Under the pieces are notes generated by a model that was not told the DNA's origin, searched no databases, and worked only from the letters and a program-made list of their open reading frames with translations. Shown here in pieces: positions 5 through 31,278 of a stretch of 35,071 bases of DNA. The position numbers and the translations under genes are program-made. Source of the DNA: Sulfurimonas sp. (GTDB lineage Bacteria; Campylobacterota; Campylobacteria; Campylobacterales; Sulfurimonadaceae). The stretch spans positions 1-35,071 of the forward strand of contig JANEIH010000009.1 in assembly GCA_024513425.1 (NCBI GenBank), written 5' to 3'. The first letter of the stretch is position 1. Each line of letters starts with the position of its first letter.

Positions 5-1252
5 ATGAGTTTTTTAAAAGAGTTTGACGAAGAAGTATATAATTTATGCGAAAAAGAGTTAGAGAGACAAACAGACCACTTAGAGATGATTGCATCAGAG
101 AACTTTACACTTCCTGCAGTTATGGAAGCTATGGGTTCTGTATTTACAAACAAATATGCAGAAGGCTACCCTGCAAAACGCTACTATGGTGGATGTGAAT
201 ATGCTGATAATGTGGAACAACTAGCAATAGACAGAGCTTGTAAGCTTTTTGGATGTAAATATGTAAATGTACAGCCTCACTCAGGCTCTCAAGCAAATGG
301 TGCAGTTTATGCAGCGCTTTTAAAAGCGGGTGATAAACTCTTGGGTATGGATCTAAGTCATGGCGGACATCTTACACACGGTTCTAAACCAAGCTTTTCT
401 GGTAAAAATTACTCATCATTTACATATGGTGTTGAGCTTGACGGTCGTATCAATTATGAGAGAGTTTTAGATATTGCTAAAATTGTTCAACCTAAGATTA
501 TCGTATGTGGCGCTTCTGCATATGCACGCGAGATTGACTTTGCAAAATTCCGTAAGATCGCAGATGAAGTCGGTGCTATTTTATTTGCTGACATTGCACA
601 TATTGCAGGTCTAGTAGCCGCGGGTGAACACCCTAGCCCATTTCCTCACGCAGATGTGGTCACTACGACTACACACAAAACTCTTGCGGGTCCTCGTGGT
701 GGTATAATTATGACAAATAATGAAGATATCGCTAAGAAGATCAACTCTGCAATCTTTCCTGCTCTTCAAGGTGGTCCACTTGTTCATGTGATCGCCGCAA
801 AAGCTGTTGGTTTCAAACATAACCTTAGCCCAGAATGGAAAGAGTATGCGCAACAGGTAAAGAAAAATGCAGCTATTCTTGCTGATGTCCTTATAGAGCG
901 TGGTTATAATGTTGTATCGGGTGGCACAGACAATCATCTTGTACTTGTAAGCTTTGTCGGTAAAGAGATCTCTGGAAAAGATGCAGATGCTGCTCTTGGA
1001 AATGCCGGCATCACTGTCAATAAAAACACTGTTCCGGGTGATACAAGAAGTCCATTTGTAACTTCTGGTATTCGCATAGGAAGCCCTGCCCTTACAAGTC
1101 GTGGCATGAAAGAAAAAGAGTTTGAACTTATTGCAAACCGTATGGCTGATGTTTTAGATGATATTAACAATACAGAACTCCAAGCAAAAATCAAAGAAGA
1201 GCTAAAAGAGTTGGCACAAAACTTTGTCATTTACAATCGAGCAACATATTAA
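5..1252 (+). CDS. glyA: Serine hydroxymethyltransferase
   Basis: This cytosolic PLP enzyme converts serine and tetrahydrofolate to glycine and 5,10-methylene-THF, and so supplies one-carbon units. The 415-aa length is normal for bacterial GlyA. The family signature [14 protein letters not shown] carries the PLP lysine at about residue 225, and the N-terminal stretch [10 protein letters not shown] and the [13 protein letters not shown] motif are classic SHMT. The start lies four bases from the window edge, so its ribosome binding site and promoter cannot be seen. The next gene follows after a 76-base gap that carries a promoter-like sequence, so glyA probably ends or belongs to an upstream operon. 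Confidence 0.97.
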
Positions 1253-1270
1253 GTAGGCCAATAGACTGAC

Positions 1271-1299
1271 TTGTTTCTTTAGCCTATTTCTGGTATTAT
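1271..1299 (+). promoter_or_regulatory. Candidate sigma-70 promoter for the SPOR gene
   Basis: TTGTTT and TATTAT are separated by 17 bases, just upstream of the SPOR-domain gene, with about 30 bases left for a leader. Called by consensus only. Confidence 0.45.
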
Positions 1300-1328
1300 A
1301 AACAAGAGATTTAACAAGAGGTAAAATT

Positions 1329-1967
1329 ATGGATGAGAAAAACGAACTGAGTGATATTATACTTGACAAAGGAAATGCGTCAGGTTCTAATAAAAAAATC
1401 ATACTGACAATAGCAACATTGGGTGTAGTTTTAATTGTTGTCTTGATGTTTATGAGTTCTGTAAACTCGGACTCAGCTAGTAACTTGCCTCACGCAGTCT
1501 TACCGCCAAAACCACAAAAAGAAGCTGTTAAGGAGAGTATTCAGGAAGAACCGCTTTTTGAAGAGGTGCAAGTATTAGAAGATGACTCTTCAACTGGTGC
1601 CGGTCTTGATAAAATCACGCAAAGAGTCAAAGAAAAGAGTCAAACAGAAGTATCTACTGCTCCTGTCAAGAGAGCTCCTGTTGCTACAAAGAGAGTAAAT
1701 AAGCCAGTAAAAACAACAACGAAAAAAGTTGCACAAACAACAACAGATATCAAGTATTATATTCAAGTTGGTTCTTTCTCAAGATATGAACCAAATAAAA
1801 AATTCTTAAGATCTATTGAAAATTTAGGCTTTAACTATGAATACCGTAAGGTTAGCAATCTCAACAAAGTTCTTGTTGGTCCGTTTAATACAAGAAGAGA
1901 AGCTAACAGTGTTAAAAGGGTTCTTCGTGCCAAAGTTGAACCGGGTGCATTCTTGGTAAAACTATAG
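1329..1967 (+). CDS. SPOR-domain membrane protein (FtsN/DedD-like)
   Basis: The 212-aa protein has a short cytoplasmic N-terminus, one transmembrane helix at about residues 22-43 (IILTIATLGVVLIVVLMFM), a long Ser/Lys/Thr/Pro-rich periplasmic linker, and a C-terminal SPOR domain from about residue 140 (YYIQVGSFSR ... VLVGPFNTRREA). SPOR domains bind denuded peptidoglycan glycans, usually at the division septum, so a role in division or wall remodelling is likely but inferred. The start follows an AAGAGG-type ribosome binding site. trpE begins 33 bases downstream, so this gene may share a transcript with trpE-aroE. Confidence 0.88.
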   Translation: MDEKNELSDIILDKGNASGSNKKIILTIATLGVVLIVVLMFMSSVNSDSASNLPHAVLPPKPQKEAVKESIQEEPLFEEVQVLEDDSSTGAGLDKITQRVKEKSQTEVSTAPVKRAPVATKRVNKPVKTTTKKVAQTTTDIKYYIQVGSFSRYEPNKKFLRSIENLGFNYEYRKVSNLNKVLVGPFNTRREANSVKRVLRAKVEPGAFLVKL

Positions 1968-2000
1968 TAGTTTATTAACAAATATTTCTCAAGGCAGACT

Positions 2001-3416
2001 TTGATACACTCAAAACAATTTACGCTTGATCAGTTAGCACCAATAGCGGTCTATTCAAAAATACGCGAGATATTTTCAGATGAAATATCCTATCTTTTTG
2101 AAAGTGCCGGTGGAAGCGAGGGTAACTACTCTTTCATCTGTATTGGCGCTAGAGAACGCTTACAATATATTGATGATAAAACAGTCTATACTGACATAGA
2201 AGGCGTACAACATACAAAAGAAGAGAATCCGTTTACTTTTTTAAAAGAGTACTATAAAAAGATAGATACAACCATCTACAGGCAAGCTACAAAAGAGCTT
2301 GGTGTCGGTTATATAGATGGATTTATCGGTTTTATCGGTTATGATATGGTAAAAGTCTTTGAACCAAAACTAGGCTCTAGTATGGATCACTTAGTCGATG
2401 AACTGCATACTCCTGATTTGGATCTAATATTACCTAAACTTGTTTTGGTTTACTCACATAAAAATCATAAAATCACACTCATCTCTACACTTAAAGAGTA
2501 TGCAGAGAAGTTTGAGAACATTGAAGCAGATCTCAAAGCTACCTATACCTACAAACACAGAGTTTATAATATCGGTAATGACAAAGGCAGTTATGCTCAC
2601 TCTAAAGAGAAGTTCTTTGAGATGCTAGATAAATCAAAAAAGATGATAAAAAGCGGTGATGTTTTTCAAATTCTTATGACAAACCGTTTCACTCGTCATA
2701 TTAAAGTAGATCCATTCTCTTTTTATAGAATTCTCCGTACTAAAAACCCTTCACCATATATGTTTTTAATGGAGTATGAAGATTTTAGCATCGTTGGTTC
2801 TTCTCCGGAGGTTATGGTTCGTCTGACTGATGGTGAGCTACTATTGCGACCGATTGCAGGAACAAGAAAACGCGGTAAAACAAAAGAGCAAGACAAAGAG
2901 TTAGAAGCGGAACTTCTTAATGATCCAAAAGAGCTAGCAGAGCATTTGATGTTAATTGATTTGGGGCGTAACGATGTTGGTCGTGTTGCAAAAACAGGAA
3001 CTGTTAAAGTAGAAGATATGATGCATATAGAGCGTTTTTCCCATGTGATGCACATCGTCTCTGATGTTGTTGCCGAACTTCGAAATGATAAAAATATGTT
3101 TGATCTCTTTATGGCAACTTTTACAGCTGGGACAATGACTGGTGCTCCAAAAATTCGAGCAATGGAGCTCATCGCTAAACATGAAGGTCTCAAGCGTGGT
3201 TTTTATAGTGGAAGTATCGGCTACTTTGGATTTGATGGAAATATGGATAGTGCTATTACTATTAGAACCGCTCTTGTAACAAAAGAGAAGGTAGTACTGC
3301 AAGCCGGTGCCGGTATAGTTGCAGATAGTATTAATGAGTTGGAGTACATGGAAGTGAAAAATAAACTTGGTGCACTTATTCACTCTTTAGAAGATCTTGA
3401 TCCAAAAGACTCATGA
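2001..3416 (+). CDS. trpE: Anthranilate synthase component I
   Basis: The 471-aa chorismate-using enzyme has an N-terminal Anth_synt_I_N domain and a C-terminal chorismate-binding domain. It makes anthranilate for tryptophan with the glutaminase TrpG. The motif PIAGTRKRG (with Ala where PabB commonly has Lys in PIKGT), DLGRNDVGRV and TMTGAPKIRAMELI support TrpE over aminodeoxychorismate synthase. The start is TTG after AAGGCAG; no better ATG exists near the expected N-terminus. The stop overlaps the aroE start (ATGA), so the two aromatic-pathway genes are translationally coupled. No trpG is present in the window. Confidence 0.9.
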   Translation: MIHSKQFTLDQLAPIAVYSKIREIFSDEISYLFESAGGSEGNYSFICIGARERLQYIDDKTVYTDIEGVQHTKEENPFTFLKEYYKKIDTTIYRQATKELGVGYIDGFIGFIGYDMVKVFEPKLGSSMDHLVDELHTPDLDLILPKLVLVYSHKNHKITLISTLKEYAEKFENIEADLKATYTYKHRVYNIGNDKGSYAHSKEKFFEMLDKSKKMIKSGDVFQILMTNRFTRHIKVDPFSFYRILRTKNPSPYMFLMEYEDFSIVGSSPEVMVRLTDGELLLRPIAGTRKRGKTKEQDKELEAELLNDPKELAEHLMLIDLGRNDVGRVAKTGTVKVEDMMHIERFSHVMHIVSDVVAELRNDKNMFDLFMATFTAGTMTGAPKIRAMELIAKHEGLKRGFYSGSIGYFGFDGNMDSAITIRTALVTKEKVVLQAGAGIVADSINELEYMEVKNKLGALIHSLEDLDPKDS

Positions 3417-4204
3417 AACTTTTTACAATTTTTGGAAATCCTGTATCACACTCCCGTTCTCCATTAATGCACAACAGTGTATTTAAACACCTTGGCTATC
3501 CAGCTTGCTATACGCGTACATATCTTGAAGATGGCTCAACTCTGCGTGAGACTTTTTTTAATTTAAAACTAAGTGGTGCAAATATAACGATCCCGCATAA
3601 AGAAGTAGCCTTTGCGGCCTGTGATGAGATACGCGGTTTTGCAAACAAAGTTGGTGTTGTCAATACTATTATAGAAGAAGATGGAAAGCTCATCGGTTAC
3701 AATACTGATGCTGATGGCTTTTTATATGCCATCTTAGAGTTTGAAAATATTAAAAGCGTACTTATTCTTGGTGCAGGCGGTACTGCAAAAGCATTAGCAA
3801 CAAAATTTTTAGAAGAGAGTATGCAAGTAAGTGTTTTAAATAGAAGTATTAAACGGCTTGAGTTCTTTAAGACGGTTGGCTGTAAAACATTTACATGGAG
3901 TGATTTTCAACTCTCATCCTATGATTTAGTTGTAAATACAACAAGTGCAGGATTAAATGACACAAAACTTCCTGCTCCAAAAGAGTTGGTTACATCTATT
4001 TTAGATGCTACTCGCTACACAGCAGATGTTATCTATGGGAAACTCACCCCTTTCTTGACACTTGCAAAAGAGAAGAGTCTTCCATATAAAGATGGTTCAG
4101 ATATGCTTCTAGGACAAGGTATTCTTGCTAACGAACTTTTTGTTCAGGGTAAATTTAAAAAACAGCAGATAAAAGCATCAATGCAAAAAAGCTTTCTTCT
4201 TTAA
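3413..4204 (+). CDS. aroE: Shikimate dehydrogenase (NADP+)
   Basis: The 263-aa enzyme reduces 3-dehydroshikimate to shikimate in the chorismate pathway. The N-terminal substrate domain carries NPVSHSRSPLMHN and GANITIPHKE with the catalytic lysine near residue 63; NTDADGF provides the conserved Asp near 99; the Rossmann loop LILGAGGTAKA marks the NADP domain. Its start overlaps the trpE stop by four bases. It makes the precursor of the chorismate that TrpE consumes. Confidence 0.95.
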   Translation: MKLFTIFGNPVSHSRSPLMHNSVFKHLGYPACYTRTYLEDGSTLRETFFNLKLSGANITIPHKEVAFAACDEIRGFANKVGVVNTIIEEDGKLIGYNTDADGFLYAILEFENIKSVLILGAGGTAKALATKFLEESMQVSVLNRSIKRLEFFKTVGCKTFTWSDFQLSSYDLVVNTTSAGLNDTKLPAPKELVTSILDATRYTADVIYGKLTPFLTLAKEKSLPYKDGSDMLLGQGILANELFVQGKFKKQQIKASMQKSFLL

Positions 4205-4214
4205 AACCTTTAGC

Positions 4215-4244
4215 ATAAGAGAGTCTAATCAACAATACTCTTAT
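4215..4244. terminator. Weak hairpin between convergent aroE and recR
   Basis: A 7-bp inverted repeat ATAAGAG / CTCTTAT lies in the 51-base gap between the convergent ends of aroE and recR. The loop is long and the flanking A and T runs are modest, so terminator function is uncertain. Confidence 0.3.
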
Positions 4245-4255
4245 AAAAACTTTAT

Positions 4256-4825
4256 TTATACCCTCACTCTATCTTCTAAAGCTCGTGTCAACGAAAGCAA
4301 GTCAATATTTTCCAAGCTTACTCCGGTAGGAACACCTTGAGCAATTTTAGAAAAATTCACATGATAACCACTTAATTTATCTTCAATATAAAGAATAACA
4401 GCATCATTTGCAATAGAAGGGGTTAAGGCAAAAAGTATCTCTTCTATGCCACTTTTTACTATATTTTCAAGATGTGATACAGAGAGCCCTTCTAGTGAAT
4501 CCATAACAAAATATTTTCCGTCAAACAAGCCATTCTCTTCTAATAGTAATATATCTTTTGCATTTTCAACGATACACAAAAGTGTAGTATCGCGTGTTTC
4601 ATCAGAGCATATATGGCAGAGTTCATCTTCACTCATTCCACCGCATATGCGACACTTTTTCAAACTCCCTATCGCATCCTCTATTGCGTGAGATATTTTC
4701 AAACCGACATATGTATCGTTCATAATCATAAAATAGGCAAGTCTTGTAGCAGATTTTTTACCAATCGTAGGTAACTCTTGTAGTGCATCAACAAGCCTAT
4801 TGAATTTTTCTAATGAATTATTCAT
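4256..4825 (-). CDS. recR: Recombination mediator protein RecR
   Basis: RecR works with RecO or RecF to load RecA on gapped DNA. The 189-aa protein has the N-terminal helix-hairpin-helix region (LPTIGKKSATRLAYFM), a four-cysteine zinc finger (CRICGGMSEDELCHIC) and a Toprim domain with CIVENAKDI. It is slightly shorter than the usual 195-200 aa, as in other epsilonproteobacteria. Its start overlaps the end of the upstream mltA by eight bases, so both come from one transcript. Confidence 0.95.
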   Translation of the reverse strand: MNNSLEKFNRLVDALQELPTIGKKSATRLAYFMIMNDTYVGLKISHAIEDAIGSLKKCRICGGMSEDELCHICSDETRDTTLLCIVENAKDILLLEENGLFDGKYFVMDSLEGLSVSHLENIVKSGIEEILFALTPSIANDAVILYIEDKLSGYHVNFSKIAQGVPTGVSLENIDLLSLTRALEDRVRV

Positions 4826-5924: not shown

Positions 5925-5931
5925 GAGTGAA

Positions 5932-5937
5932 ATTATA
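5932..5937 (-). promoter_or_regulatory. -10 box immediately upstream of mltA
   Basis: Reading the minus strand, TATAAT is followed by seven bases and then the mltA ATG. Normal spacing would put the transcription start at or next to the start codon. No clear -35 was found. Confidence 0.4.
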
Positions 5938-5971
5938 TCATCAAAGTATTTATTTTAAATTACAAAATGGG

Positions 5972-5977
5972 TATAAT
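5972..5977 (+). promoter_or_regulatory. -10 box upstream of dnaJ
   Basis: TATAAT in an AT-rich stretch 35 bases before the dnaJ ATG, followed by an AGGA ribosome binding site. The -35 is poor, as is common in Campylobacterota promoters. Confidence 0.45.
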
Positions 5978-6012
5978 TTCATAAAAATTTTAAACTACTA
6001 TAGGATATACGA

Positions 6013-7137
6013 ATGGAAAAGTTAAGCTATTATGAGATTTTAGAAGTATCACACAATGCAGATAAAATAACAATCAAAAAAGCTTATAGAAAAATGGCAA
6101 AAAAATATCATCCCGATAAAAATCCGGGAAACAAAGAAGCTGAACATAAATTCAAGCTCTGTAATGAGGCCTATCAGTGTCTTAGCGATGACCGACAAAG
6201 AAGCATCTATGACAGATATGGCAAAGAGGGTCTTCAAGGTATGGGTGGAGGTGGTGGTGCTTCTCACGCAGGATTTGATGACTTAGGAAGCATCTTTGAA
6301 GAGATGTTTAGTGGTTTTGGAGGCGGTAGCAGAAGACGACAAAATCCGTCTGCTATGGATAAATATCCACTTGATATGAATGTCGATATGAATATCAGCT
6401 TTCAAGAGGCCATCTTTGGTTGTGAAAAAGAGATAAACTATACTTACAAAAAAGCCTGTGAAACTTGCAAAGGCACAGGCGCCAAAGATGGCAAGCTCTC
6501 TACCTGTTCACAATGCAAGGGGCAAGGTCAGGTCTATATGAAACAAGGCTTTATGACCTTTTCACAAACTTGTCCGGTATGTCACGGAACAGGCTCTTCT
6601 GTAACCCAAAAGTGCAAAGCATGTCACGGTAGTGGTTATGAAGAGATAAAGGAGAAAATCACCATCACCATTCCAAAAGGGATCGATTCCGGAAATCGCC
6701 TGAGAGTCTCTGCTAAAGGTAACATTGGCAAAAACGGCAACAGAGGTGATCTCTACATCACATTTGAGGTCAAACCAGACAAACACTTTATAAGAAACGA
6801 AAATGATATCTATATTGAAATTCCACTCTTCTTCACGCAGGCTGTAAAGGGCGACACTTTAACAATTCCATCACTTACAGGTGAGCTTGAATTAAAGCTT
6901 GATATTGGAACAAAAGATAAACAACGCTATACTTTTAGAGGTGAAGGTATCGATGATGTTCATGGACATGGAAAAGGTGACTTGATTGCTATCATTAACA
7001 TCCAGTATCCTAAAAAACTGAGTGATGAGCAATTGGAGTTGCTCGATCAACTCCAAGAGTCCTTTGGTATTGAGTCAAAACCGCATGAGAATCTGCTTGA
7101 CGCTGCCATAGATAAAATGAAAAATTGGTTTACATAA
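6013..7137 (+). CDS. dnaJ: Chaperone protein DnaJ
   Basis: This is a full-length type I Hsp40 (374 aa), the DnaK co-chaperone. The J domain has HPD at residues 33-35, followed by a Gly/Phe-rich stretch (GMGGGGGA ... FGGG) and four zinc-finger repeats ([32 protein letters not shown]) and the C-terminal substrate-binding domain. The ribosome binding site AGGAT precedes ATG. It is separated from dnaK/grpE, and the following aldolase-fold gene begins six bases after its stop, so the two are co-transcribed. Confidence 0.97.
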
Positions 7138-7737: not shown

Positions 7738-9033
7738 TTAAAGTGTTTTAATAGCTCTATAAGCCACATCCATTATCTTCTTTATCTCCTCTTTGCTAAT
7801 AATATACGGTGGCATAAAATAGACGATATGTCCAAGCGGACGCAAAAGCACTCCATTATCAAGCGCATACTCATACACTTTTAGCCCTATGCGTTCTTCT
7901 GCCGTGTATCCTTTGAGTTCAACCGCACAAACCATACCGGTTTGGCGTATTTCTGCCACATTTTTCAAGCTTTTAAATCTCTCAAGCTCTTTTGCCATCA
8001 GAGCTGATTTTTCTCTGTTTTTCTCAATAATATTTTCATTTTCAAAGATATCTAGAGTTGCATTTGCAGCAGAACATGCCAAAGCATTACCCGTATAGGA
8101 GTGTGAGTGCAAAAATGCTTTATGCTCATTATAGTCACAATAAAACTTTGCATAAATATCGTTAGAAGTAAGCACCACGGAGAGTGGAAGATATCCGCCG
8201 GTAAGCCCTTTTGAAAGTACTAAAAAATCAGGTGAAATTCCAGCCTTTTGAGAAGCAAAAAGCTCACCTGTCCGACCAAAACCAACCATTACCTCATCTG
8301 CGATAAGATGCACATTAAATCTGTCACATATCTCACGCAATTGAACTAAAAAGTGAGAATGATACATATGCATATATCCTGCCCCTTGGATCAAAGGCTC
8401 AACAATAATAGCACTTATCTCATCGGCTCTTTGTTGACAAAGTAGCTCAAACTCCCGAGCTGCTACTATAGCACTCTTTTTGCTCATATCTTTTGGCACG
8501 GGAGTTTGAATGGTGTTCATAAGAAGTGGTTCATAGGTATCTTTATAGAGCTCAACATCACCGACACTGAGAGCTCCTATTGTCTCTCCATGATATGAAT
8601 TTGTTAATGAAATAAAGAGTGATTTTTTTTCTCCTGAGTTCAAATGGGCGTGATAGCTCATCTTAAGTGCGACCTCAACTGCAGATGAGCCGTTATCTGA
8701 GTAAAAACACTTATCTAAACCATTGGGTGTTAGTTTCACAAGACGCTCAGAGAGCCTTACAACCTGTTTATGGGTAAACCCTGCAAGTATAACATGCTCT
8801 AATGTATCTAACTGCTCTTTTATCTTTTCATTTATATAGCTGTTGGTGTGTCCAAAGATATTTACCCACCATGAGCTTATGGCATCAATATAACGATTTT
8901 CTTCAAAATCTTCTAGATAGACTCCATGAGCTTTCTTTATCGGTATTAGCGGCAATCTCTCGTGATCTTTCATCTGCGTGCAGGGATGCCAAAGAACATC
9001 TAAGTCTCTATTTTTCAATTCTTCATTTTTCAT
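7738..9033 (-). CDS. bioA: Adenosylmethionine-8-amino-7-oxononanoate aminotransferase
   Basis: A PLP-dependent fold-type I aminotransferase (431 aa) that makes 7,8-diaminopelargonate from KAPA for biotin. The N-terminal LWHPCTQMKDHE is typical BioA; ISSWWVNIFGHTN, SDNGSSAVEVALKM, the Asp of ADEVMVGFGRTG and the PLP lysine of LVLSKGLTGG (about residue 275) follow in order. No other biotin gene is in the window. A TATAAT box sits six bases upstream of the ATG with no ribosome binding site, suggesting a leaderless message. Confidence 0.95.
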   Translation of the reverse strand: MKNEELKNRDLDVLWHPCTQMKDHERLPLIPIKKAHGVYLEDFEENRYIDAISSWWVNIFGHTNSYINEKIKEQLDTLEHVILAGFTHKQVVRLSERLVKLTPNGLDKCFYSDNGSSAVEVALKMSYHAHLNSGEKKSLFISLTNSYHGETIGALSVGDVELYKDTYEPLLMNTIQTPVPKDMSKKSAIVAAREFELLCQQRADEISAIIVEPLIQGAGYMHMYHSHFLVQLREICDRFNVHLIADEVMVGFGRTGELFASQKAGISPDFLVLSKGLTGGYLPLSVVLTSNDIYAKFYCDYNEHKAFLHSHSYTGNALACSAANATLDIFENENIIEKNREKSALMAKELERFKSLKNVAEIRQTGMVCAVELKGYTAEERIGLKVYEYALDNGVLLRPLGHIVYFMPPYIISKEEIKKIMDVAYRAIKTL

Positions 9034-13081: not shown

Positions 13082-13387
13082 TTGTCTGCTTCTTTTGAAA
13101 AGATTATGAAGGCCAAATCACTCCTTGGCCTGCGTGAGAAATCCACCCTTAAAGAGATTAAAGACAAATATAAAAACCTTATAAAAAGATGGCATCCTGA
13201 TAAATTTAAAGATAATGTTGAAAAAGCTACAAAGATGAGTGCCAAAATCAATGAAGCCTACAAAACCATCCTTGAGTACACAAACCACTACGAATACCCT
13301 TTTGATGAAGAGAGTATAAAAACAAAGTGCCAATCACCCTCAGATTGGATGAAAGAGAGATTTGGCAATAAGAAAGAGACTATTTAG
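13082..13387 (+). CDS. Small J-domain protein downstream of ftsZ
   Basis: A 101-aa protein that is essentially one J domain: SLLGLREKSTLKEIKDKYKNLIKRWHPDKF with an intact HPD, then helix III/IV (EKATKMSAKINEAYKTIL). It lacks Gly/Phe and zinc-finger regions, so it is a type III J protein expected to stimulate a DnaK ATPase. The open frame begins with TTG two bases after the ftsZ stop and has no clear ribosome binding site; ATG at 13106 is an alternative start and still leaves the J domain intact. Its stop overlaps the end of the convergent membrane gene. Client unknown. Confidence 0.82.
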   Translation: MSASFEKIMKAKSLLGLREKSTLKEIKDKYKNLIKRWHPDKFKDNVEKATKMSAKINEAYKTILEYTNHYEYPFDEESIKTKCQSPSDWMKERFGNKKETI

Positions 13388-14343: not shown

Positions 14344-14999
14344 TAGAGTAATTTTCCATGTTCAAGATTAATAACCCTATCAACAAAATCAAGCTCAAAA
14401 AAGAGCGGATCATGCGTTGCAACAATAATTGTTCGTTTTTTTGACTTTAGCTCACGCAGTATCTCTATAAACTCACGGGAGAGTTTTTCATCAAGATTGG
14501 CCGTTGGCTCATCTGCTAAAATAATTTTTGGATCATTAATATTTGCTCTAGCAATTGCAACACGCTGTTGTTCTCCACCTGAGAGGTTTCTAACCATCAA
14601 AGATACTTTATGTGCTATAGAAAATATCTCTAGCACTCTCTTTGCTTTTTGACGCATAAGCTCACGCGATAGGTTGAGAGGAAAAAGCGGCAAAAGTACA
14701 TTCTCTTCTACACTTAAATCAGGAATGAGATTGTACTTTTGAAATACGATACCGATATTCTCTCGTCTATATGAAGCTGTAAAATGATCCAACATTTTTG
14801 ATATCTTCTTACCATCTACGATTACTTCACCGGCTGTTGGCTTAGAGAGCCCTGCTATTAGAGACAAAACGGTACTCTTTCCACTTCCGCTCACTCCTTT
14901 TAGAACAATAAGCTCACCCTCGCTAAACTCCAATGAGATATCTTGCAGTGCTTTGATGTTTTTACCATAGATTTTTGAAACATTTTTTAGCTTTATCAT
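14343..14999 (-). CDS. ABC transporter ATP-binding protein (LolD/MacB type)
   Basis: The 218-aa ATPase has Walker A GVSGSGKST, Q-loop VFQKYNLIPDL, signature LSGGEQQRVAIARA, Walker B IILADEPTANLD and the switch His in ATHD. Size and sequence fit the LolD/FtsE/MacB group that partners FtsX-like permeases. It overlaps the upstream permease gene by four bases and the downstream membrane gene by one base, so the three are a coupled unit. Confidence 0.93.
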   Translation of the reverse strand: MIKLKNVSKIYGKNIKALQDISLEFSEGELIVLKGVSGSGKSTVLSLIAGLSKPTAGEVIVDGKKISKMLDHFTASYRRENIGIVFQKYNLIPDLSVEENVLLPLFPLNLSRELMRQKAKRVLEIFSIAHKVSLMVRNLSGGEQQRVAIARANINDPKIILADEPTANLDEKLSREFIEILRELKSKKRTIIVATHDPLFFELDFVDRVINLEHGKLL

Positions 15000-17387: not shown

Positions 17388-18221
17388 CTATACCTTTAGT
17401 GTAAAGCCTCTGTCAAATGAAGAGTAGTCTTGATAAAATTCGAGGCTTTGAATTTCTGCGTTGTGTAGATAAGAGTGTATTTTATCTTGTTGATCATAAC
17501 CCATCTCACAGCTAAAAAACTTAATCTTTTGCCTTAAGACTTCATCAAGAAGTTGCTGAATGATTTCATCACCGATTTGACCACCAAAAAGGGCATTTTG
17601 TGGTTCAAAAGAGAGGTTTAATCCAAGCTCTTCACCCTCTGCAATATAAGGAGGATTTGATACCAAATAGTCAATTTGCTCATTCAGAGGTTCTAAAAGT
17701 GACCCCTCACGCAACTCTATTTGATTTTGCAAACCAAAGTTTTCAATATTTTTTTGAGCAACCATAAGTGCTTTTTGGGAGATATCAATGGCGATTATCT
17801 TTGCATTTGGAAGATGAAGTGCAAGCATAATAGAGATGATTCCACTACCAACCCCCACTTCGGCTAATCTGATTGCTACCTCTTTATCTTCAATATTTTT
17901 TAAAACTTCATCAATTAAAAGCTCAGTTTCAGGACGCGGAATAAGAGCACCCTCATCTATATAAAACTGTTGTGAATAAAAACTGACACGATTGACGATA
18001 TACTCAAAAGGCTCACCCCTGCTTCTGCGTGCAACCCAGTCAAAAAAAGCATCATCAAGCTCTACTTCACTCTTTTGATTTGTAAGTAGCCATAACTCAT
18101 CTTTATCAAAATAAGTCATCAGAAGCAGTTGTGCCTCACGCACAGCTCTTGGAATCTGAGAGGCTTGTAGCGTCTGCGTTATCTCACGCAATAACGCTTC
18201 GACTATATATTTGCGTCGCAT
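17388..18221 (-). CDS. prmC: Release factor glutamine methyltransferase
   Basis: PrmC methylates the GGQ glutamine of release factors RF1 and RF2. The 277-aa protein has an N-terminal helical domain (ARRSRGEPFEYIVNRVSFYS with the family's PxxYI-type stretch), SAM motif I EVGVGSGIISIMLA and the catalytic NPPY in LVSNPPYIAEGEEL. The start lies inside the last 19 bases of the upstream M48 gene, indicating coupled translation. prfA, its frequent neighbour, is not in the window. Confidence 0.94.
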   Translation of the reverse strand: MRRKYIVEALLREITQTLQASQIPRAVREAQLLLMTYFDKDELWLLTNQKSEVELDDAFFDWVARRSRGEPFEYIVNRVSFYSQQFYIDEGALIPRPETELLIDEVLKNIEDKEVAIRLAEVGVGSGIISIMLALHLPNAKIIAIDISQKALMVAQKNIENFGLQNQIELREGSLLEPLNEQIDYLVSNPPYIAEGEELGLNLSFEPQNALFGGQIGDEIIQQLLDEVLRQKIKFFSCEMGYDQQDKIHSYLHNAEIQSLEFYQDYSSFDRGFTLKV

Positions 18222-20131: not shown

Positions 20132-21019
20132 TTAGTTTGTTAGTAAATCTCGTAAAGATTCCTGTGGGGATTTTCCTTCAAGCGTTGCGTGTACCTCTGT
20201 AGCAATAGGGAGATAGAGACTCTCTTTTTGTGCAATTTCTCGAAGTGCATACGCAGTACCGATACCCTCAGCTACTTCACCAAGCTCACGCAGAATATCC
20301 TCTTGAGAGTCTCCACGGGCAAGTCCTAGTCCTACCCGAAAGTTTCTACTCATTGTTGATGATGCCGTAAGAAAAAGATCTCCTGCACCACTAAGTCCTA
20401 AAAAGGTATCTTTTTTTGCTCCATAGACAGCACCAAAACGCTTCATCTCTACAAGCCCACGCGAAATAAGTGCAGCTGCGGCATTGTTTCCAAGCTCAAG
20501 TCCTGAACAGATTCCAGCGGCAATGGCAATGACATTTTTATAAGCCCCTGAGATCTCTGCACCAACAACATCACTAGATATGTATGTTTTGATAAATAGA
20601 GGAAAAAACTTTGTAAACTCTTCTGCAAGCTTCTCATTGGTAGAACTTATAACTAGAGCCGTAGGGAGTGACTGCATCACTTCTGCGGCAAATGACGGTC
20701 CTGAGAGAAAAGCGATATTTTCATCTGGAACATATCGACTATAGATCTCATTTAAAAATCTGCTGGTTTTTGCCTCTATTCCTTTGGATGCAACAAGAAT
20801 TTTTTGATTGCTAAAGACAAAGTTTTCCTCCAACCAAGATGCAATCTGCTGTGCAGGTACCGTAATAACAAGATATTCGCACTTAAGAATCTCTTCCAAT
20901 GAGACAAAATTCTTTATATCTCTTGGTGTTCGAGAATTAATAACAACATCACTCTTTCGTGAGAGTGCAAATGCAAGTGCACTTCCCCATTTACCAGCTC
21001 CAATGACTCCAATTAACAT
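20132..21019 (-). CDS. gpsA: Glycerol-3-phosphate dehydrogenase [NAD(P)+]
   Basis: GpsA reduces dihydroxyacetone phosphate to sn-glycerol-3-phosphate for phospholipid synthesis. The 295-aa enzyme has the Rossmann GAGKWGSALAFALSR, the FLSGPSFAAEV segment and the catalytic lysine in ISGAYKNVIAIAAGIC, then TFLGLSGAGDLFLTASS. The start is constrained because the Rossmann loop begins at residue 7; it lies 29 bases inside the end of the upstream TrkA-like gene, so the two are strongly coupled. It is the last gene of the gatB operon. Confidence 0.95.
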   Translation of the reverse strand: MLIGVIGAGKWGSALAFALSRKSDVVINSRTPRDIKNFVSLEEILKCEYLVITVPAQQIASWLEENFVFSNQKILVASKGIEAKTSRFLNEIYSRYVPDENIAFLSGPSFAAEVMQSLPTALVISSTNEKLAEEFTKFFPLFIKTYISSDVVGAEISGAYKNVIAIAAGICSGLELGNNAAAALISRGLVEMKRFGAVYGAKKDTFLGLSGAGDLFLTASSTMSRNFRVGLGLARGDSQEDILRELGEVAEGIGTAYALREIAQKESLYLPIATEVHATLEGKSPQESLRDLLTN

Positions 21020-21710: not shown

Positions 21711-23265
21711 CTCTAACCCTTGTACGCAGATATTTTTCAAATTCTAAAATCAAAATCTCATATCCGACAACTAAAAGATAATCCCCTGCTTCAAGCAGTG
21801 TAGTATCAATAGGATTGAAAAAGAATCGGTCATTATTATATTTATTGATTCCTAAAAGAACAATCTGAAAATCTTTATTTCCAAGATCACCAACTGTTGG
21901 AAAATTATCGACAATATGCTGCGTGATACTAAGCTCATCAATCTTTACATCAAGATTTTCACTACGCAGTTCATGAATTACCTCAAAAGCAACAGGCTTA
22001 CCGACAATCTCCTTTGTAATAAGCCCTACAAGCTCCTGAGGATAGACGATTTTATCTATCCCTGCAAAATCAAGTTTCTTACGATTTGTATCACTCATAA
22101 GCAAAGAGAGAATAAAGACATCTTTATTGATAGAGCGGATTGTAAGTGCAGCATATACATTTTCAATATCATCCTCACGCAGACACAAAACTGCTTTGAT
22201 CTGTCTATCTATATCGATATTGAGCTTTTCATAGCTCTCTACTCTTCCTGGATTGTAATGAAGTGCTGTATAACCATCTTTTTTTGCCATCTCAATACGA
22301 CCTTGATCATCATCCATAATAATGATTGAGCTATCTTTTATAGAGAGTTTTTTTGCAACCTCACGCGAGATCTTTTCATATCCGCAGATAAGATAAAAAC
22401 GCTTGAGCTTTGAGACATCTTCAATAGTTTTCATCTCTCGAATCTCATCAAGTTTTTCTGTAAATGCAGAGACAAAGAGTGATGTTGTAAATGCCAAAAC
22501 AGCCATACCGGCAACAATGACCAAAATAGCAACAAATCTACCTTCTGCCGTAACAGGGGTAATATCTCCATACCCGACAGTTGAGATGGTAACGATCGAC
22601 CAATAAAAAGCTTGAAAAAGAGTATTTACAGAAGATGCCGGATTATTTGCTTCCATCACGTAGATAAGCACCGAAGAGACAAAAATTACAACCGAAGCAA
22701 AAATTCCAAGTGTTAAAAATTCAAACTTTTTCGCAGCAAGAACAGAAGAGAGCGTCTGAAAACTTTTTGCATATCGAAAGAGTTTAAAAACACGAAAGAG
22801 GATGAAAATTCGAAGAAGTCGCAACTGATGAAAGAAAGGTAGTATCGCCAATAAGTCAATAATTGCTTTTGGCGATATCATATAGTTTAGTTTTACTTTT
22901 AAGATCTGCTTAAAAGCCTTTGCAAGATTAACCTCTCGATGTAAAAAAGTATCATGTTCTGCGTGAGTTACAATAATCTTACTAACACTGCTATTCACCC
23001 ATAACCGTAACATATACTCAACAAAAAATATAAAAGAGATGATATAGTTACTAAAGAACATAAGGTAGTCGTTCACATGGAACTTTACCTCGCGTATAAG
23101 GACACTTACACTGATAAAGATAAGTGTAATCATAAAAATATCTATATATTTTTTATACCTGTTTTTATCATCTTCTAAAATACTATAAAAAAAATGCTTA
23201 GACTTCTGATACGATTTTGATGCATCTAAATAATAAGCAAACTCAAGTATCTGGTGTTTTAGCAT
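21703..23265 (-). CDS. Voltage-sensor K+ channel with RCK/TrkA domains
   Basis: The 520-aa protein has six TM helices. S4 (about 148-164) carries regularly spaced arginines and a lysine (LRLLRIFILFRVFKLFR), as in voltage-gated channels. The pore has the K+ filter TVGYGD at 229-234. After S6 comes an RCK domain from about 289 (YLICGYEKISREVAKKL) and a TrkA-C domain at the end (LEAGDYLLVVGYEILILEFEKYL). It is a plasma-membrane potassium channel gated by voltage and probably by a ligand. gatB lies five bases upstream and the second RCK gene overlaps its 3' end. Confidence 0.93.
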   Translation of the reverse strand: MLKHQILEFAYYLDASKSYQKSKHFFYSILEDDKNRYKKYIDIFMITLIFISVSVLIREVKFHVNDYLMFFSNYIISFIFFVEYMLRLWVNSSVSKIIVTHAEHDTFLHREVNLAKAFKQILKVKLNYMISPKAIIDLLAILPFFHQLRLLRIFILFRVFKLFRYAKSFQTLSSVLAAKKFEFLTLGIFASVVIFVSSVLIYVMEANNPASSVNTLFQAFYWSIVTISTVGYGDITPVTAEGRFVAILVIVAGMAVLAFTTSLFVSAFTEKLDEIREMKTIEDVSKLKRFYLICGYEKISREVAKKLSIKDSSIIIMDDDQGRIEMAKKDGYTALHYNPGRVESYEKLNIDIDRQIKAVLCLREDDIENVYAALTIRSINKDVFILSLLMSDTNRKKLDFAGIDKIVYPQELVGLITKEIVGKPVAFEVIHELRSENLDVKIDELSITQHIVDNFPTVGDLGNKDFQIVLLGINKYNNDRFFFNPIDTTLLEAGDYLLVVGYEILILEFEKYLRTRVRDD

Positions 23266-25491: not shown

Positions 25492-25523
25492 GAACTTGCT
25501 CCCTTGTCTTTAAAAATTACGGA

Positions 25524-25529
25524 ATTATA
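25524..25529 (-). promoter_or_regulatory. -10 box for atpB
   Basis: Minus-strand TATAAT about 33 bases before the atpB start. It lies back to back with the -10 of the divergent DUF3365 gene. Confidence 0.45.
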
Positions 25530-25562
25530 TTTAAAATTGCATTAAAACATTATAAGTTTTGC

Positions 25563-25568
25563 TATAAT
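25563..25568 (+). promoter_or_regulatory. -10 box for the DUF3365 gene
   Basis: TATAAT 33 bases before the ATG at 25602, followed by a GGAG ribosome binding site. Confidence 0.45.
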
Positions 25569-25601
25569 TAGTAATAAAAATCAGAGAGTTGGAGAAAGAG
25601 T

Positions 25602-26156: not shown

Positions 26157-26159
26157 GCC

Positions 26160-26181
26160 AAACGAGGAAAACTCCTCGTTT
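26160..26181. terminator. Bidirectional terminator between DUF3365 gene and rny
   Basis: AAACGAGGA and TCCTCGTTT form a perfect 9-bp stem with a four-base loop. T-runs lie on both sides in the respective directions. The two genes are convergent, and the repeat overlaps the rny stop codon. Confidence 0.8.
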
Positions 26182-27736
26182 ATTTTGCAAACTCTACTGC
26201 TCTACTCTCCCGAATTACATTGACTTTAATTTCACCTGGATATTGAACTTTTTGCTCTATCTCTTTTGCTATCTCTTTAGCCATTAAAACCGACTCATCA
26301 TCATTAACAAGTATTGCATTAACAATGACGCGTACTTCGCGTCCTGCATTGATGGCATAGGCCTGACGAACACCGATATGTCCAGAAGCGATATCTTCGA
26401 TCTCCGTAACTCGTTTTAAGAAGCTCTCTAACACCTCACGGCGCGCTCCAGGGCGTGCCGCAGAGAGGGCATCTGCCGCACACACTGCACCACACTCAAC
26501 AGATTGAATCTCTTGCTGTCCATGGTGCGCATAGATTGCATTAATGACGACTTCACTTTCATCGTAACGACGACATATCTCTACACCCAAATCTACATGG
26601 TTTCCATCAACATCATGGGTAAGCGCCTTGCCAATATCATGCAGAAGTCCCGCACGCTTTGCCAAAATCGGATCACCGCCCATCTCAGCAGCCATAATAC
26701 CAGCTAGGTGAGCCACTTCAAGTGTATGTACTAATGCGTTTTGTCCATAAGAGGCACGATAGCGTAGGCGACCAATGAGCTTCATAAGCTCTGGATGCAT
26801 CACTCCGATATTTAGCTCTGCTACTAGCTCTTCACCCTCTGAGAGAATCTTTGACTCAAACTCATTTGAGACCTTCTTAAAAATCTCCTCAATACGAGCC
26901 GGTTGAACTCTTCCATCTTCTATAAGCAGTTGTAATGTTTTTGTCGCTATTGCACGACGATAGAGATTAAAACTACTCACAAGAATTATATTTGGTGTAT
27001 CATCAATGATAATATCAACACCTAAAAGTGTCTCAAGCACTTTGATATTACGCCCCTCTTTGCCGATGATACGACCTTTTAACTCATCATTGTCAAGGTG
27101 TACCGAGTTTGTCAATCTCTCTGCTGCAAACTCTCCTGCATAACGGTTTGTTGCCTGAGCTAAAATATAATTTGCTCTTCTCTCTGCCTGCTCTTTTGCC
27201 TCATTTTCATAGCGTCGTACAATATGCGCTATCTCTGCACGCGATTTCTCTTCTATTGTATTGAGTAGTATCTTTTTTGCTTCATCTTGTGTCATTCCTG
27301 CATAACGCTCTACTGCGTGGAGTGCTTCGTCTATCTTTTGTTCATATTTTTTTTTCAGTAAATCAAGGGACTTTTCGTTTCTCTCTAAGTTTATTTTTTG
27401 GGCTTTCAAGGCTTTAAATTCTAGCTGAATCTTTTTTTCTTCATTCTGCTTATAACGCAAGAAGTTCTGCTCTTTGCGAATCAATTTATCTTCTCTTCGA
27501 TTTATATCCGCTTTTGCAGCATCAAACTTTTTCTTTGCTTCAAGTTCTATCTCACGAGACTTCAGATGCACACGCTTTAGGAACATTTGTGCCTCATTCT
27601 CGATCGCTTTTGCTTTTGCCTGAGCCTGTTGGACATAAATGTCAAAATTAGCACCCGTATTTTTTTTAGAGATGAAAAAGCCCGCTACTCCGCTGACAGT
27701 GGCAATTCCACCACCTAGTAGTATCTCATTTAACAT
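26180..27736 (-). CDS. rny: Ribonuclease Y
   Basis: RNase Y is a membrane-anchored endoribonuclease that starts mRNA decay. The 518-aa protein has an N-terminal TM anchor (ILLGGGIATVSGVAGFFI), a long charged coiled coil (about 30-200), a KH domain (GRIIGKEGRNIKVLETLLGVDI) and an HD domain with the metal pair in LLHDIGKALTHDVDG. Length is as expected. Its start overlaps the upstream cyclo-ligase stop by seven bases. Confidence 0.96.
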   Translation of the reverse strand: MLNEILLGGGIATVSGVAGFFISKKNTGANFDIYVQQAQAKAKAIENEAQMFLKRVHLKSREIELEAKKKFDAAKADINRREDKLIRKEQNFLRYKQNEEKKIQLEFKALKAQKINLERNEKSLDLLKKKYEQKIDEALHAVERYAGMTQDEAKKILLNTIEEKSRAEIAHIVRRYENEAKEQAERRANYILAQATNRYAGEFAAERLTNSVHLDNDELKGRIIGKEGRNIKVLETLLGVDIIIDDTPNIILVSSFNLYRRAIATKTLQLLIEDGRVQPARIEEIFKKVSNEFESKILSEGEELVAELNIGVMHPELMKLIGRLRYRASYGQNALVHTLEVAHLAGIMAAEMGGDPILAKRAGLLHDIGKALTHDVDGNHVDLGVEICRRYDESEVVINAIYAHHGQQEIQSVECGAVCAADALSAARPGARREVLESFLKRVTEIEDIASGHIGVRQAYAINAGREVRVIVNAILVNDDESVLMAKEIAKEIEQKVQYPGEIKVNVIRESRAVEFAK

Positions 27737-28311
27737 CTTTTATTTCCTCTTTTTCGTATAGTCCTGTTTTTTATTATCTTTGTTGGTGTAATGAGCAGAT
27801 CGCCGACAACATCATAAACATCACAAATCTTCTCTTTTGTGTGGCAAAGTTGTAACTGCACAAAAATGGTATAAGGTCTCTTTGGTAATTTTTCAAAGAA
27901 ACGATCATACATTCCTTTTCCAAAACCAACTCTCTGCATAGCACCATCCACCCCAACGACAGGCACTATGGCAATATCAATTTTTTTAATATCTTTTAAT
28001 GTATTTCCCGCTTCAAAAATACCAAACTTTTTTTTCTTAAGCGGTAATCTAAATGGTATCATTTTAAAACTTTTACCAACCATAAACGGTATGAAAATAT
28101 TATGTTTTTTTCTTAATTTTTTCAATGTTTTTATAATGTTTGCTTCACTTTGCAATGGATAATAGAGGAGAATATCAGCTCTTTTTTCATCCTTTAAAAT
28201 ACTCTGTAACTTTTTATTTAAAAGGTACTCTCTATATATTCTATTGTGATGAGGTATATTTTTTATCTTTTTTAGACAATTTTTTCTAAATTCACTTTTT
28301 GTAAGAGTCAT
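27730..28311 (-). CDS. 5-formyltetrahydrofolate cyclo-ligase family protein
   Basis: The 193-aa protein belongs to the MTHFS family, which converts 5-formyl-THF to 5,10-methenyl-THF with ATP. The C-terminal motif GVDGAMQRVGFGKGMYDRFF corresponds to the substrate and ATP-binding GxGxGxYD segment; ILLYYPLQSEANI is the family's central motif. The N-terminus is Lys-rich (KSEFRKNCLKKIKN). It is the first gene before rny and overlaps it. It is divergent from the TlpA-type gene at 28369. Confidence 0.88.
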   Translation of the reverse strand: MTLTKSEFRKNCLKKIKNIPHHNRIYREYLLNKKLQSILKDEKRADILLYYPLQSEANIIKTLKKLRKKHNIFIPFMVGKSFKMIPFRLPLKKKKFGIFEAGNTLKDIKKIDIAIVPVVGVDGAMQRVGFGKGMYDRFFEKLPKRPYTIFVQLQLCHTKEKICDVYDVVGDLLITPTKIIKNRTIRKRGNKRC

Positions 28312-28327
28312 ATTAAAACTTTATGGA

Positions 28328-28333
28328 TATAAT
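28328..28333 (+). promoter_or_regulatory. -10 box for the TlpA-type gene
   Basis: TATAAT 35 bases before the ATG at 28369, with AAGG between them. It serves the TlpA-type gene and probably ftsY. Confidence 0.45.
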
Positions 28334-28368
28334 TTCAAATATTCTACACAAATTAAGGTTAAATTTTC

Positions 28369-28929
28369 ATGTTAAAAATTACACTTCTATCATCTTTACT
28401 TACTTTTTCTCTTCTCTTTCAAGCCTGTTCGTCTGATGAGGACAAAACAGCAGAGGCAAATGCTCTACTAGCTAAAAATGAGATCGTTCTTACAGCAACA
28501 GACAGCAGTCAATATCTACTCAAAAAAGTCAATGACGGCTTCAAACTTGACAACTCAGATGCAGAAATTCTTATCTTAGATATCTTTGCAACATGGTGTC
28601 CGCCATGTCGGGCTGAGGCATCACACCTCACTTCACTGCAAAATAAGTACAAAAACAGGATCAAAATCATTGGTGTAACCATCGAAGAGAATATCCAAAA
28701 TACAAAACTTGAGAACTTTAAAAGAGATTATAATGCCAACTATACATTAGTTAACACTCCGGAAAATAAGCATTTAATCGATGAAGTTGCCAAAAAACTG
28801 CAACTTGGAAGCAACTTCGGAATTCCCCTGCTTGTTATCTACAAAGATGGTAAACTTATACACTACTATCAGGGTGCCGTCGAAGAGGAGTTTATTGAAA
28901 GTGATATCAAAAGAGCGTTAGAGATATAA
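28369..28929 (+). CDS. TlpA-family thiol:disulfide lipoprotein
   Basis: The 186-aa protein has a lipoprotein signal peptide with a lipobox-like FQAC (Cys 20) and a thioredoxin fold with the active site WCPPC (Cys 77 and 80) in LDIFATWCPPCRAEASHL. The cis-proline segment is FGIPLLVIYKDGK. It is a membrane-tethered reductase, the type often used in cytochrome c maturation or periplasmic thiol reduction; the partner is not evident. ftsY starts 14 bases downstream. Confidence 0.92.
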   Translation: MLKITLLSSLLTFSLLFQACSSDEDKTAEANALLAKNEIVLTATDSSQYLLKKVNDGFKLDNSDAEILILDIFATWCPPCRAEASHLTSLQNKYKNRIKIIGVTIEENIQNTKLENFKRDYNANYTLVNTPENKHLIDEVAKKLQLGSNFGIPLLVIYKDGKLIHYYQGAVEEEFIESDIKRALEI

Positions 28930-28943
28930 GGAACTTAACAAAT

Positions 28944-29825
28944 ATGTTTGGATTTATAAAAAAATCACTCGGTAAAACTGTTGAGACTATCAAAACAGTT
29001 GCACCAAAAAAGAAGATCACTTTTACAAAGGGCGAACTCGAAGATATTTTACTTGAAGCTGATGTAGAATACGAACTTGTTGAAATTATCCTGCGTGAGA
29101 TATACCAAGAACAGGTAACACGCGAGATACTGCGTTCAAAACTTTTAGCAACACTGCGTTATGCCGACTATCAAGAGCCGAAGTTTACACCGCCTTTTGT
29201 TGAGCTTGTCGTGGGTGTTAACGGTGCAGGTAAAACTACAACTATCTCAAAACTCACTTACAAATACAAACAAGAGGGAAAGAGTGTCCTTTTAGGGGCA
29301 GGTGATACATTTCGTGCTGCTGCCATTGAGCAGATTACTCTCTGGGCAAATAAGCTTGACATTCCCATTGTTGCTTCAAAACAGGGACATGACAGCTCAG
29401 CAGTTGCTTATGATACCATAGACTCTGCCAAAGCAAAAAATATAGACCATGTTATTATAGACACGGCAGGACGACTCCACACGCAGACAAATCTTGCAAA
29501 TGAACTCAAAAAGATAAAGCGTATCTGCAATAAAGCACACGCAGGCTCTCCACACAGAACACTTTTAATCATTGACGGTACACAAGGAAACTCTGCTATC
29601 ACGCAGGCGAAAGCCTTTAATGAAATAATAGGCATAGATGGCATTATTATCACAAAACTCGACGGTACGGCGAAAGGTGGAAGTATCTTCTCTATCGCTT
29701 ATGCTTTAGAACTTCCAATACTCTATGTAGGAACAGGAGAGAAGCCTGAGAACTTCGCACCATTTAATAAATTTGAATTTGTTGATGGACTTTTAGATGC
29801 GCTTTTTATAGAAGAGAGTGAGTAA
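28944..29825 (+). CDS. ftsY: Signal recognition particle receptor FtsY
   Basis: FtsY is the SRP receptor GTPase for co-translational membrane targeting. The 293-aa protein lacks the long acidic A domain of enterobacterial FtsY and starts almost directly with the N domain. G motifs are GVNGAGKTTT, the IBD segment DTFRAAAIEQ, DTAGR, and TKLDGTAKGG. An AAGGA ribosome binding site lies upstream. It is probably co-transcribed with the TlpA-type gene. Confidence 0.96.
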   Translation: MFGFIKKSLGKTVETIKTVAPKKKITFTKGELEDILLEADVEYELVEIILREIYQEQVTREILRSKLLATLRYADYQEPKFTPPFVELVVGVNGAGKTTTISKLTYKYKQEGKSVLLGAGDTFRAAAIEQITLWANKLDIPIVASKQGHDSSAVAYDTIDSAKAKNIDHVIIDTAGRLHTQTNLANELKKIKRICNKAHAGSPHRTLLIIDGTQGNSAITQAKAFNEIIGIDGIIITKLDGTAKGGSIFSIAYALELPILYVGTGEKPENFAPFNKFEFVDGLLDALFIEESE

Positions 29826-29872
29826 AGAGCACCTCTAAATTCTCCTTTTTATATGACAAAATGCCATATTAT

Positions 29873-29901
29873 TTACCTCTTTGTGTAAAAAAATTTATAA
29901 T
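29873..29901 (+). promoter_or_regulatory. Candidate promoter for radA
   Basis: TTACCT and TATAAT with a 17-base spacer, 30 bases before the radA ATG. A second TATAAT one base before the ATG is too close to serve radA. Confidence 0.4.
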
Positions 29902-29931
29902 TATTCCAAATTTTTCATAAAAGATATAATC

Positions 29932-31278
29932 ATGGCTAAGAAAAAAATACTCTTTGAGTGTCAACATTGTGGGCTTACCACTCCTAGGTGGATGGGAAAA
30001 TGTACCAACTGCGGTGCATGGGACAGCTTTATAGAGCTTAATGAACAGCAGCAAGAGGTCATCAAACAGACAAAATCAACATCAGCTACTTCTGCAAAAG
30101 CGATAAGCATCAATGAAGTCATAGAAGAAGAAGTTTTTCGTTTCTCTAGTCTTGATAAAGAACTTGACAATGTTTTAGGTGGCGGTATCGTTCCGGGAAG
30201 TCTGACACTTATCGGCGGAAGTCCCGGTGTCGGAAAGTCCACCCTGCTTCTAAAGATCGGCTCAAATATCGCTTCGGGCGGTAAAAATGTACTCTATGTT
30301 ACAGGAGAAGAGTCCACTTCTCAAATAAAACTGCGTGCAAATCGTCTGAAGTCAAACCATAACTCACTCTATCTGTTGAGCGAAATACGCCTTGAGCAGA
30401 TTTTAGTTGAGCTTAAATATAGAGAATATGACTTTCTAATCATCGACTCTATTCAAACCATTTACTCTGAAAATATCACCTCTGCACCAGGATCTGTCAC
30501 GCAGGTACGCCAAATCACTTTTGAGTTGATGCGTATTGCAAAAGAGAAAGATTTAGCCATTTTTATCATTGGACATATTACTAAAGAGGGTTCGATTGCC
30601 GGACCAAGAGTACTTGAGCATATGGTTGACACGGTTCTCTATTTTGAAGGGGACTCATCTCAAGAACTCCGAATTTTAAGAGGATTTAAAAACCGTTTTG
30701 GTGCAACAAGTGAGATAGGTGTCTTTGAGATGAAACAAGAGGGACTAGTGAGTGCCACAGATATCGCCTCACGCTTCTTTAACCGTAATTCACAACAAAG
30801 CGGATCGGCTCTTACTGTTGTGATGGAGGGGAGTCGCCCTATTATACTTGAAGTCCAAGCTCTTGTCTCTGAATCACACACACCAAACTCAAAACGGCAA
30901 GCTACCGGATTTGATAATAATCGTCTCAATATGCTCTTAGCCCTTTTAGAGAGAAAACTTGAAATTCCACTCTCGGGGTATGATGTCTTTATTAACATCA
31001 CAGGAGGTATCAAAATCACTGAAACCGCAGCAGATTTAGCCATTCTCGCAGCAATCATTTCAAGTTTTCGTGACCGTGCAATTTCAAAAGAGACCATCTT
31101 TATCGGAGAGGTCTCACTCGTTGGTGATGTGCGTGAGGTCTATGCCCTTGATGCAAGACTCAAAGAGGCTAAAATGCAAAATATCACAAAGGCACTAGTT
31201 GCTAAAAAACCATTAGAAAAAAGTATGATTAAAACATATATAGTCGATGAAGTAACAAAACTCTTGGAATGGTATTGA
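29932..31278 (+). CDS. radA: DNA repair protein RadA
   Basis: RadA is a RecA-like helicase that promotes branch migration in recombination. The 448-aa protein (start moved from TTG at 29881 to ATG at 29932, because RadA begins with AKKKILFECQHCG) has a four-cysteine zinc finger (CQHCGLTTPRWMGKCTNC), Walker A GGSPGVGKST, the RadA-specific FKNRFGATSEIG and a C-terminal Lon-like domain (EVSLVGDVREVYALDARLKEA). It lacks a strong ribosome binding site. Confidence 0.95.
   Translation: MAKKKILFECQHCGLTTPRWMGKCTNCGAWDSFIELNEQQQEVIKQTKSTSATSAKAISINEVIEEEVFRFSSLDKELDNVLGGGIVPGSLTLIGGSPGVGKSTLLLKIGSNIASGGKNVLYVTGEESTSQIKLRANRLKSNHNSLYLLSEIRLEQILVELKYREYDFLIIDSIQTIYSENITSAPGSVTQVRQITFELMRIAKEKDLAIFIIGHITKEGSIAGPRVLEHMVDTVLYFEGDSSQELRILRGFKNRFGATSEIGVFEMKQEGLVSATDIASRFFNRNSQQSGSALTVVMEGSRPIILEVQALVSESHTPNSKRQATGFDNNRLNMLLALLERKLEIPLSGYDVFINITGGIKITETAADLAILAAIISSFRDRAISKETIFIGEVSLVGDVREVYALDARLKEAKMQNITKALVAKKPLEKSMIKTYIVDEVTKLLEWY

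Follow-up and report, generated by a model that had tools for sequence, protein, structure and literature searches.

To our knowledge, DNA uptake sequences have been described for two families, the Neisseriaceae and the Pasteurellaceae. According to the available text of two sources, the DNA uptake sequence (DUS) of the Neisseriaceae is a short, non-palindromic word that occurs about once per 1-2 kb in the core genome, symmetrically on both strands, is scarce in mobile elements and exists as related dialects within the family (PMC3630211, PMC7371117). The uptake signal sequence (USS) of the Pasteurellaceae has a 9-base core that is found genome-wide, comes in at least two versions within the family and is suspected to have a minor pilin as its receptor (PMC12616744). 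No earlier report of such a sequence in Sulfurimonas or the Campylobacterota was found in the open-access literature searched.

The window analysed here is a stretch of 35,071 nucleotides from a Sulfurimonas sp. contig (JANEIH010000009.1). In it, the initial annotation noticed 14 copies of the octamer CTGCGTGA, where fewer than one was expected, and took them for a genome-wide signal, which could be a DNA uptake sequence, a Chi-like or segregation motif or a protein-binding site. All 14 copies, nine on the minus strand and five on the plus strand, lie exactly where it placed them, and dinucleotide shuffles of the window average 0.52 copies and never exceed 3. The true core is TGCGTGAG, shifted by one base relative to that octamer, and the consensus word is YTGCGTGAG. 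The window contains 16 cores. Ten of the 14 CTGCGTGA sites carry the core, the other four (6833, 21919, 29599 and 30497) lack the final G and fall into a weakly enriched class, and six cores (4685, 8332, 17706, 18135, 18183 and 31130) lie beyond the earlier list of 14. Four of these six had been noted there as near variants, TTGCGTGA. The sites are as follows.

645-652, minus strand: core TGCGTGAG (as CTGCGTGAGG), within glyA; the orthologue with the B word (see below) has GGCATGTGG at the matching position
1489-1496, minus strand: core TGCGTGAG
3543-3550, plus strand: core TGCGTGAG
4685-4692, plus strand: core TGCGTGAG (as TTGCGTGAG)
6263-6270, minus strand: core TGCGTGAG
6833-6840, minus strand: CTGCGTGA followed by A, off-consensus
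8332-8339, minus strand: core TGCGTGAG (as TTGCGTGAG)
13131-13138, plus strand: core TGCGTGAG
14451-14458, minus strand: core TGCGTGAG
17706-17713, minus strand: core TGCGTGAG (as TTGCGTGAG)
18135-18142, minus strand: core TGCGTGAG (as GTGCGTGAG)
18183-18190, minus strand: core TGCGTGAG (as TTGCGTGAG)
20285-20292, minus strand: core TGCGTGAG
21919-21926, plus strand: CTGCGTGA followed by T, off-consensus
22174-22181, minus strand: core TGCGTGAG
22960-22967, plus strand: core TGCGTGAG
29092-29099, plus strand: core TGCGTGAG
29599-29606, minus strand: CTGCGTGA followed by T, off-consensus
30497-30504, minus strand: CTGCGTGA followed by C, off-consensus
31130-31137, plus strand: core TGCGTGAG (as GTGCGTGAG), the last copy in the window

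It is true, as had been remarked, that no copy occurs after about 31.2 kb, but the remaining 3.9 kb are too short for this to carry any meaning. The accessory end of the window starts with a phage-type integrase gene (PF00589) at 33024-34004.

The signal is indeed genome-wide, as the window's own genome (G000, 1.35 Mb in 91 contigs) contains 433 copies of CTGCGTGA, 220 on one strand and 213 on the other, whereas its reversed control occurs 27 times; the count is about 16-20 times the expectation. Markov analyses were carried out on stretches of 289 kb from G000, 380 kb from G108 and 400 kb each from G055 and G099. The top octamer in the G000 stretch is TGCGTGAG, with 170 copies against 7.7 expected, and the same word occurs 172 times in the G108 stretch against 8.2 expected, with a core density of about one per 1.7-2.2 kb. 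The base before the core is usually C or T, the two being equally frequent (CTGCGTGAG 75 and TTGCGTGAG 77 in the G000 stretch, against 3-5 expected), and one-base variants within the core stay near background, making the signal sharp. The gaps between cores follow an approximately random pattern, with slight clustering at most (CV 1.06 and 1.15), which rules out regular spacing and therefore a periodic function. In the 289 kb of G000, 165 of the 170 sites (about 97%) are genic, and with just five intergenic sites a role as terminator pairs was ruled out as well.

The word is missing from parts of the genome. The carrier G108 consists of a single chromosome contig of 2,029,060 bp and a second contig of 49.8 kb (L198-L200), which carries, as judged by eye, a ParA/ParB-type gene pair besides a cluster of NiFe hydrogenase and maturation genes. 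This plasmid-like contig has no cores against 22.5 expected (P=1.6e-10). Cores are also absent from a 17.8-kb low-GC chromosomal stretch, the longest empty one sampled, which is an O-antigen ligase/glycosyltransferase region. The absence from islands that had been suggested as a check was found for this one island, together with depletion on the plasmid, in one genome, and the word thus belongs to the shared chromosome and not to everything in the cell.

The distribution of the word was surveyed in about 100-115 Sulfurimonas genomes and 397 genomes drawn across the phylum; the neighbours by FtsZ bear the name Sulfurimonas. Strong enrichment of TGCGTGAG among the surveyed genomes is restricted to G000, G007, G013, G021, G026, G108 and G134, of which the five included in the concatenated protein tree form one clade, and the genomes drawn from the rest of the phylum showed no enrichment. 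Other Sulfurimonas genomes have other words. The B word GGCATGTGG occurs 905 times in G055 against 7 for the control, and in the 400 kb of this genome GGCATGTGGA reaches 120 copies against 0.3 expected, with one-base variants nearly absent. The A word, TGCGTTT(G), counted as CTGCGTTT, occurs 2331 times in G099 against 83 for the control, and the palindrome TTACATGTAA 425 times in G093 against 3. In the genomes examined there is mostly one dominant word per genome. The TGCGTTT word is found in three separate groups of the concatenated protein tree and TTACATGTAA in separated groups of the FtsZ tree, therefore changes of word occurred more than once.

Several further observations were made on these words. 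The palindrome TTACATGTAA is present in hundreds of copies per genome (G011, G093, G043, G033 and others; L047, L065, L070, L085). Five genomes (G034, G035, G040, G068 and G094) have GGCATGTGG at intermediate levels, 85-179 copies against 2-9 for the control, which would suit a word in the course of gain or loss. In two carriers of TGCGTGAG, CTGCGTTT is in 3-fold excess as well (101 against 32 in G007 and 97 against 34 in G026), which may be a relic of DNA exchange with a different dialect group. A palindrome made of two overlapping word halves, CTCACGTGAG, occurs 9 times in G108 (L001-L019) against 0.2 expected, and in G000 it does not rank with the top palindromes. Over-represented CAAACCGTCA, TATTCACA and GTTGCAAC in other Sulfurimonas (L108, L111, L113 and L114) are possible further dialects.

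Conservation at orthologous positions was found within the clade, where word boxes are exactly kept in 49% of aligned coding sites, compared with 17-23% for ordinary 8-mers. For comparison across words, clade sites were codon-aligned to genomes with other words. The B genomes have their own word GGCATGTGG at the same place and in the same register in 13 of 83 cases (0.29 expected), and the reverse comparison, from B sites to the clade, gave 13 of 109. Against the A genomes, the corresponding figure is 18 of 264 (0.97 expected). At the clade sites aligned to A or B genomes, words of a non-matching dialect are almost entirely lacking, with none in the comparison with B, and TGCGTGAG is absent in 235 alignments to genomes without any of the four words. 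As these pair counts include orthologous repeats, they were redone on larger single-genome samples, which gave 9 of 80 for the clade against G055, at about 8 distinct positions (0.14 expected), and 2 of 54 against G099 (0.18 expected), with few independent positions. In-place replacement is therefore seen for GGCATGTGG and, less strongly, for TGCGTTT. In the glyA of the window, ATCTGCGTGAGGAAA is aligned with GTGGGCATGTGGAAA, and in a second example TTCTGCGTGAGGTTT is aligned with TTCGGCATGTGGATT; the words in these alignments, TGCGTGAGG, TGCGTTTGG and GGCATGTGG, have a common skeleton, NGCRTKWGG. The palindrome TTACATGTAA coincides modestly with TGCGTTT and shows no excess at TGCGTGAG sites (1 of 209, 0.84 expected). 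As it is palindromic and does not share sites with TGCGTGAG, it may represent something distinct from the non-palindromic words.

Comparison with competence genes showed ComEC, DprA, a secretin and type IV pilins in the carriers checked. All 36 Sulfurimonas genomes tested for it have ComEC, and in a set of 16 DprA, secretin and prepilin-type (N_methyl) pilins were each found in all and a ComEA-like HHH protein in 15. G000 has ComEC, DprA, the secretin, the ComEA-like HHH protein and pilins. The competence genes are found also in genomes without any of the four words. In most of the genomes inspected, two or three pilin genes lie next to priA, at a distance of about 8 kb from comEC. Neither the two minor pilins close to comEC nor those encoded in a second operon simply track the word; the priA-linked pilin gives a weak and unconvincing hint, and priA itself has the same tendency. 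The comEC of G108 (L165 14863-15948) has an in-frame TGA, which suggests that the gene is disrupted or the assembly faulty, and the dnaB of G134 (L166 217-2235) has what by eye looks like an intein-like insertion that is absent from the G108 copy.

Taken together, YTGCGTGAG probably serves natural transformation as an uptake signal sequence. Among the functions first proposed, this fits best because of the dialects, the in-place switching with two other words, the absence from the plasmid and the O-antigen island, and the presence of competence genes. On free DNA, the word would be the target of a receptor that reads its sequence and is probably a minor type IV pilin; the pilus and secretin would pass the bound DNA on to ComEC, after which DprA and RecA would recombine it into the chromosome. 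DNA from kin that carries the word would be preferred, and such biased uptake and recombination could drive the spread of the word and keep it in exchanged core genes, while DNA arriving by other routes would stay without it. Where the specificity of the receptor changed in other lineages of Sulfurimonas, TGCGTTT(G), GGCATGTGGA and perhaps TTACATGTAA could have arisen, with part of the existing sites converted in place upon a change of dialect. With slightly less confidence, we favour the view that Sulfurimonas has at least three related, mutually exclusive uptake dialects (TGCGTGAG, TGCGTTT(G) and GGCATGTGG, sharing NGCRTKWGG) that have switched in place between lineages, and that uptake specificity arose here independently for a third time.

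If true, this would be a third case of uptake specificity, outside the Neisseriaceae and Pasteurellaceae, in deep-branching and environmentally abundant sulfur oxidisers. The presence of several words in one genus together with homologous replacement would make receptor-word co-evolution and molecular drive directly testable, and the word could serve as a genome-wide marker of barriers to gene exchange among Sulfurimonas species.

It is also conceivable, though unlikely, that the word is a Chi-like hotspot, which an enzyme of the AddAB/RecBCD type reads in one direction while it resects DNA ends, so that self DNA is spared and RecA loading is promoted. A non-palindromic word of 8-9 bases inside genes, enriched on the chromosome and absent from one plasmid, would suit such a role, which is disfavoured by the strand bias. 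In G108, where the GC skew flips sign near 0.95 Mb, the leading strand holds 103 cores and the lagging strand 69 (65:60 when counted with the octamer CTGCGTGA). This 60% is under the 64-70% that composition alone predicts and the 64% of anagram words, so the skew of 60:40 shows no polarity beyond base composition. Chi in E. coli is about 75% on the leading strand, and the value here is significantly lower (P=1e-5). Chi words do vary by species, as stated in the available text of PMC3630211, but multiple words within a genus imply a quicker turnover than a conserved enzyme would give, and TTACATGTAA is palindromic.

A HIP1-like iterated word, kept by methyltransferase-linked repair and replaced by other words where the methyltransferase differs, is improbable. 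The cyanobacterial HIP1 does show the same genome-wide word replacement and is tied to a methyltransferase (PMC4390886), and the palindromic nature of TTACATGTAA would fit with it. In a Sulfurimonas-like contig (L063 1-21119, WTBY01000060.1), the HIP1 palindrome GCGATCGC is itself the top octamer, with a count of 6 over both strands, that is 3 sites, against 0.07 expected. However, TGCGTGAG is non-palindromic and does not occur on a plasmid that shares the cell with it, although the methyltransferase and repair would act there too.

There is little chance that the word is bound by a protein that organises or segregates the chromosome (KOPS-, matS-, SlmA- or parS-like), even though it is chromosomal, genome-wide and missing from one plasmid. 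A KOPS-like role is effectively excluded because there is no strand polarity beyond composition and no strong switch at dif. Cores are present in every 20-kb sample round the circle, without clustering at ori or ter, and at a density far above that of known matS, SlmA and parS sites, which are far sparser.

Sites occur in both orientations and in five of the six reading frames, the sixth being unoccupied because an in-frame TGA would be needed, and the commonest frame, LRE (YTG CGT GAG), covers 37% of them; no single codon context accounts for the copies, as the initial annotation had argued. An origin in codon usage, shared peptide motifs or mutation bias, for which only the LRE frame could speak, is refuted by these frames and orientations, by synonymous one-base variants that are not enriched, by exact words conserved above background and by the lack of cores on the co-resident plasmid, and has next to no probability.

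The word is like the Neisseriaceae DUS, which has ComP as its receptor, in shape, density, symmetry, core-genome location, scarcity in mobile elements and dialects, so far as the available text on the DUS describes them, and differs from it in sequence, in phylum and in its receptor, which is putative. Few sites are at terminators (5 of 170 intergenic), in contrast to many DUS. One-base variants are commoner in known DUS and USS than around the Sulfurimonas word. Some positions in Sulfurimonas have switched dialect in place, for which no statement was found for Neisseria in the available text of the DUS literature. A 9-base core, genome-wide distribution, multiple versions and a suspected minor-pilin receptor are shared with the Pasteurellaceae USS (candidate receptor ComN/PpdA), to which the word is unrelated in sequence and taxon. 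AT-rich flanking tracts, as in the Hin-USS, were not seen in the flank composition in Sulfurimonas. Chi sites are similarly over-represented, octamer-sized and species-specific, whereas the present word has no orientation bias beyond composition and one genus has several words. With HIP1 and the alternate HIPs of cyanobacteria it shares the exchange of a genome-wide word for another in relatives (PMC4390886); HIP1, however, is palindromic and methyltransferase-linked, while this word is non-palindromic and absent from a co-resident plasmid. To summarise, the word matches the DUS and USS in its sharpness, symmetry, place in the core genome, absence from a plasmid, dialects and in-place switching, as far as these are described in the available text of the sources (PMC3630211, PMC7371117, PMC12616744), and is best read as a putative uptake signal with species dialects that would act like the DUS of Neisseria or the USS of Haemophilus.
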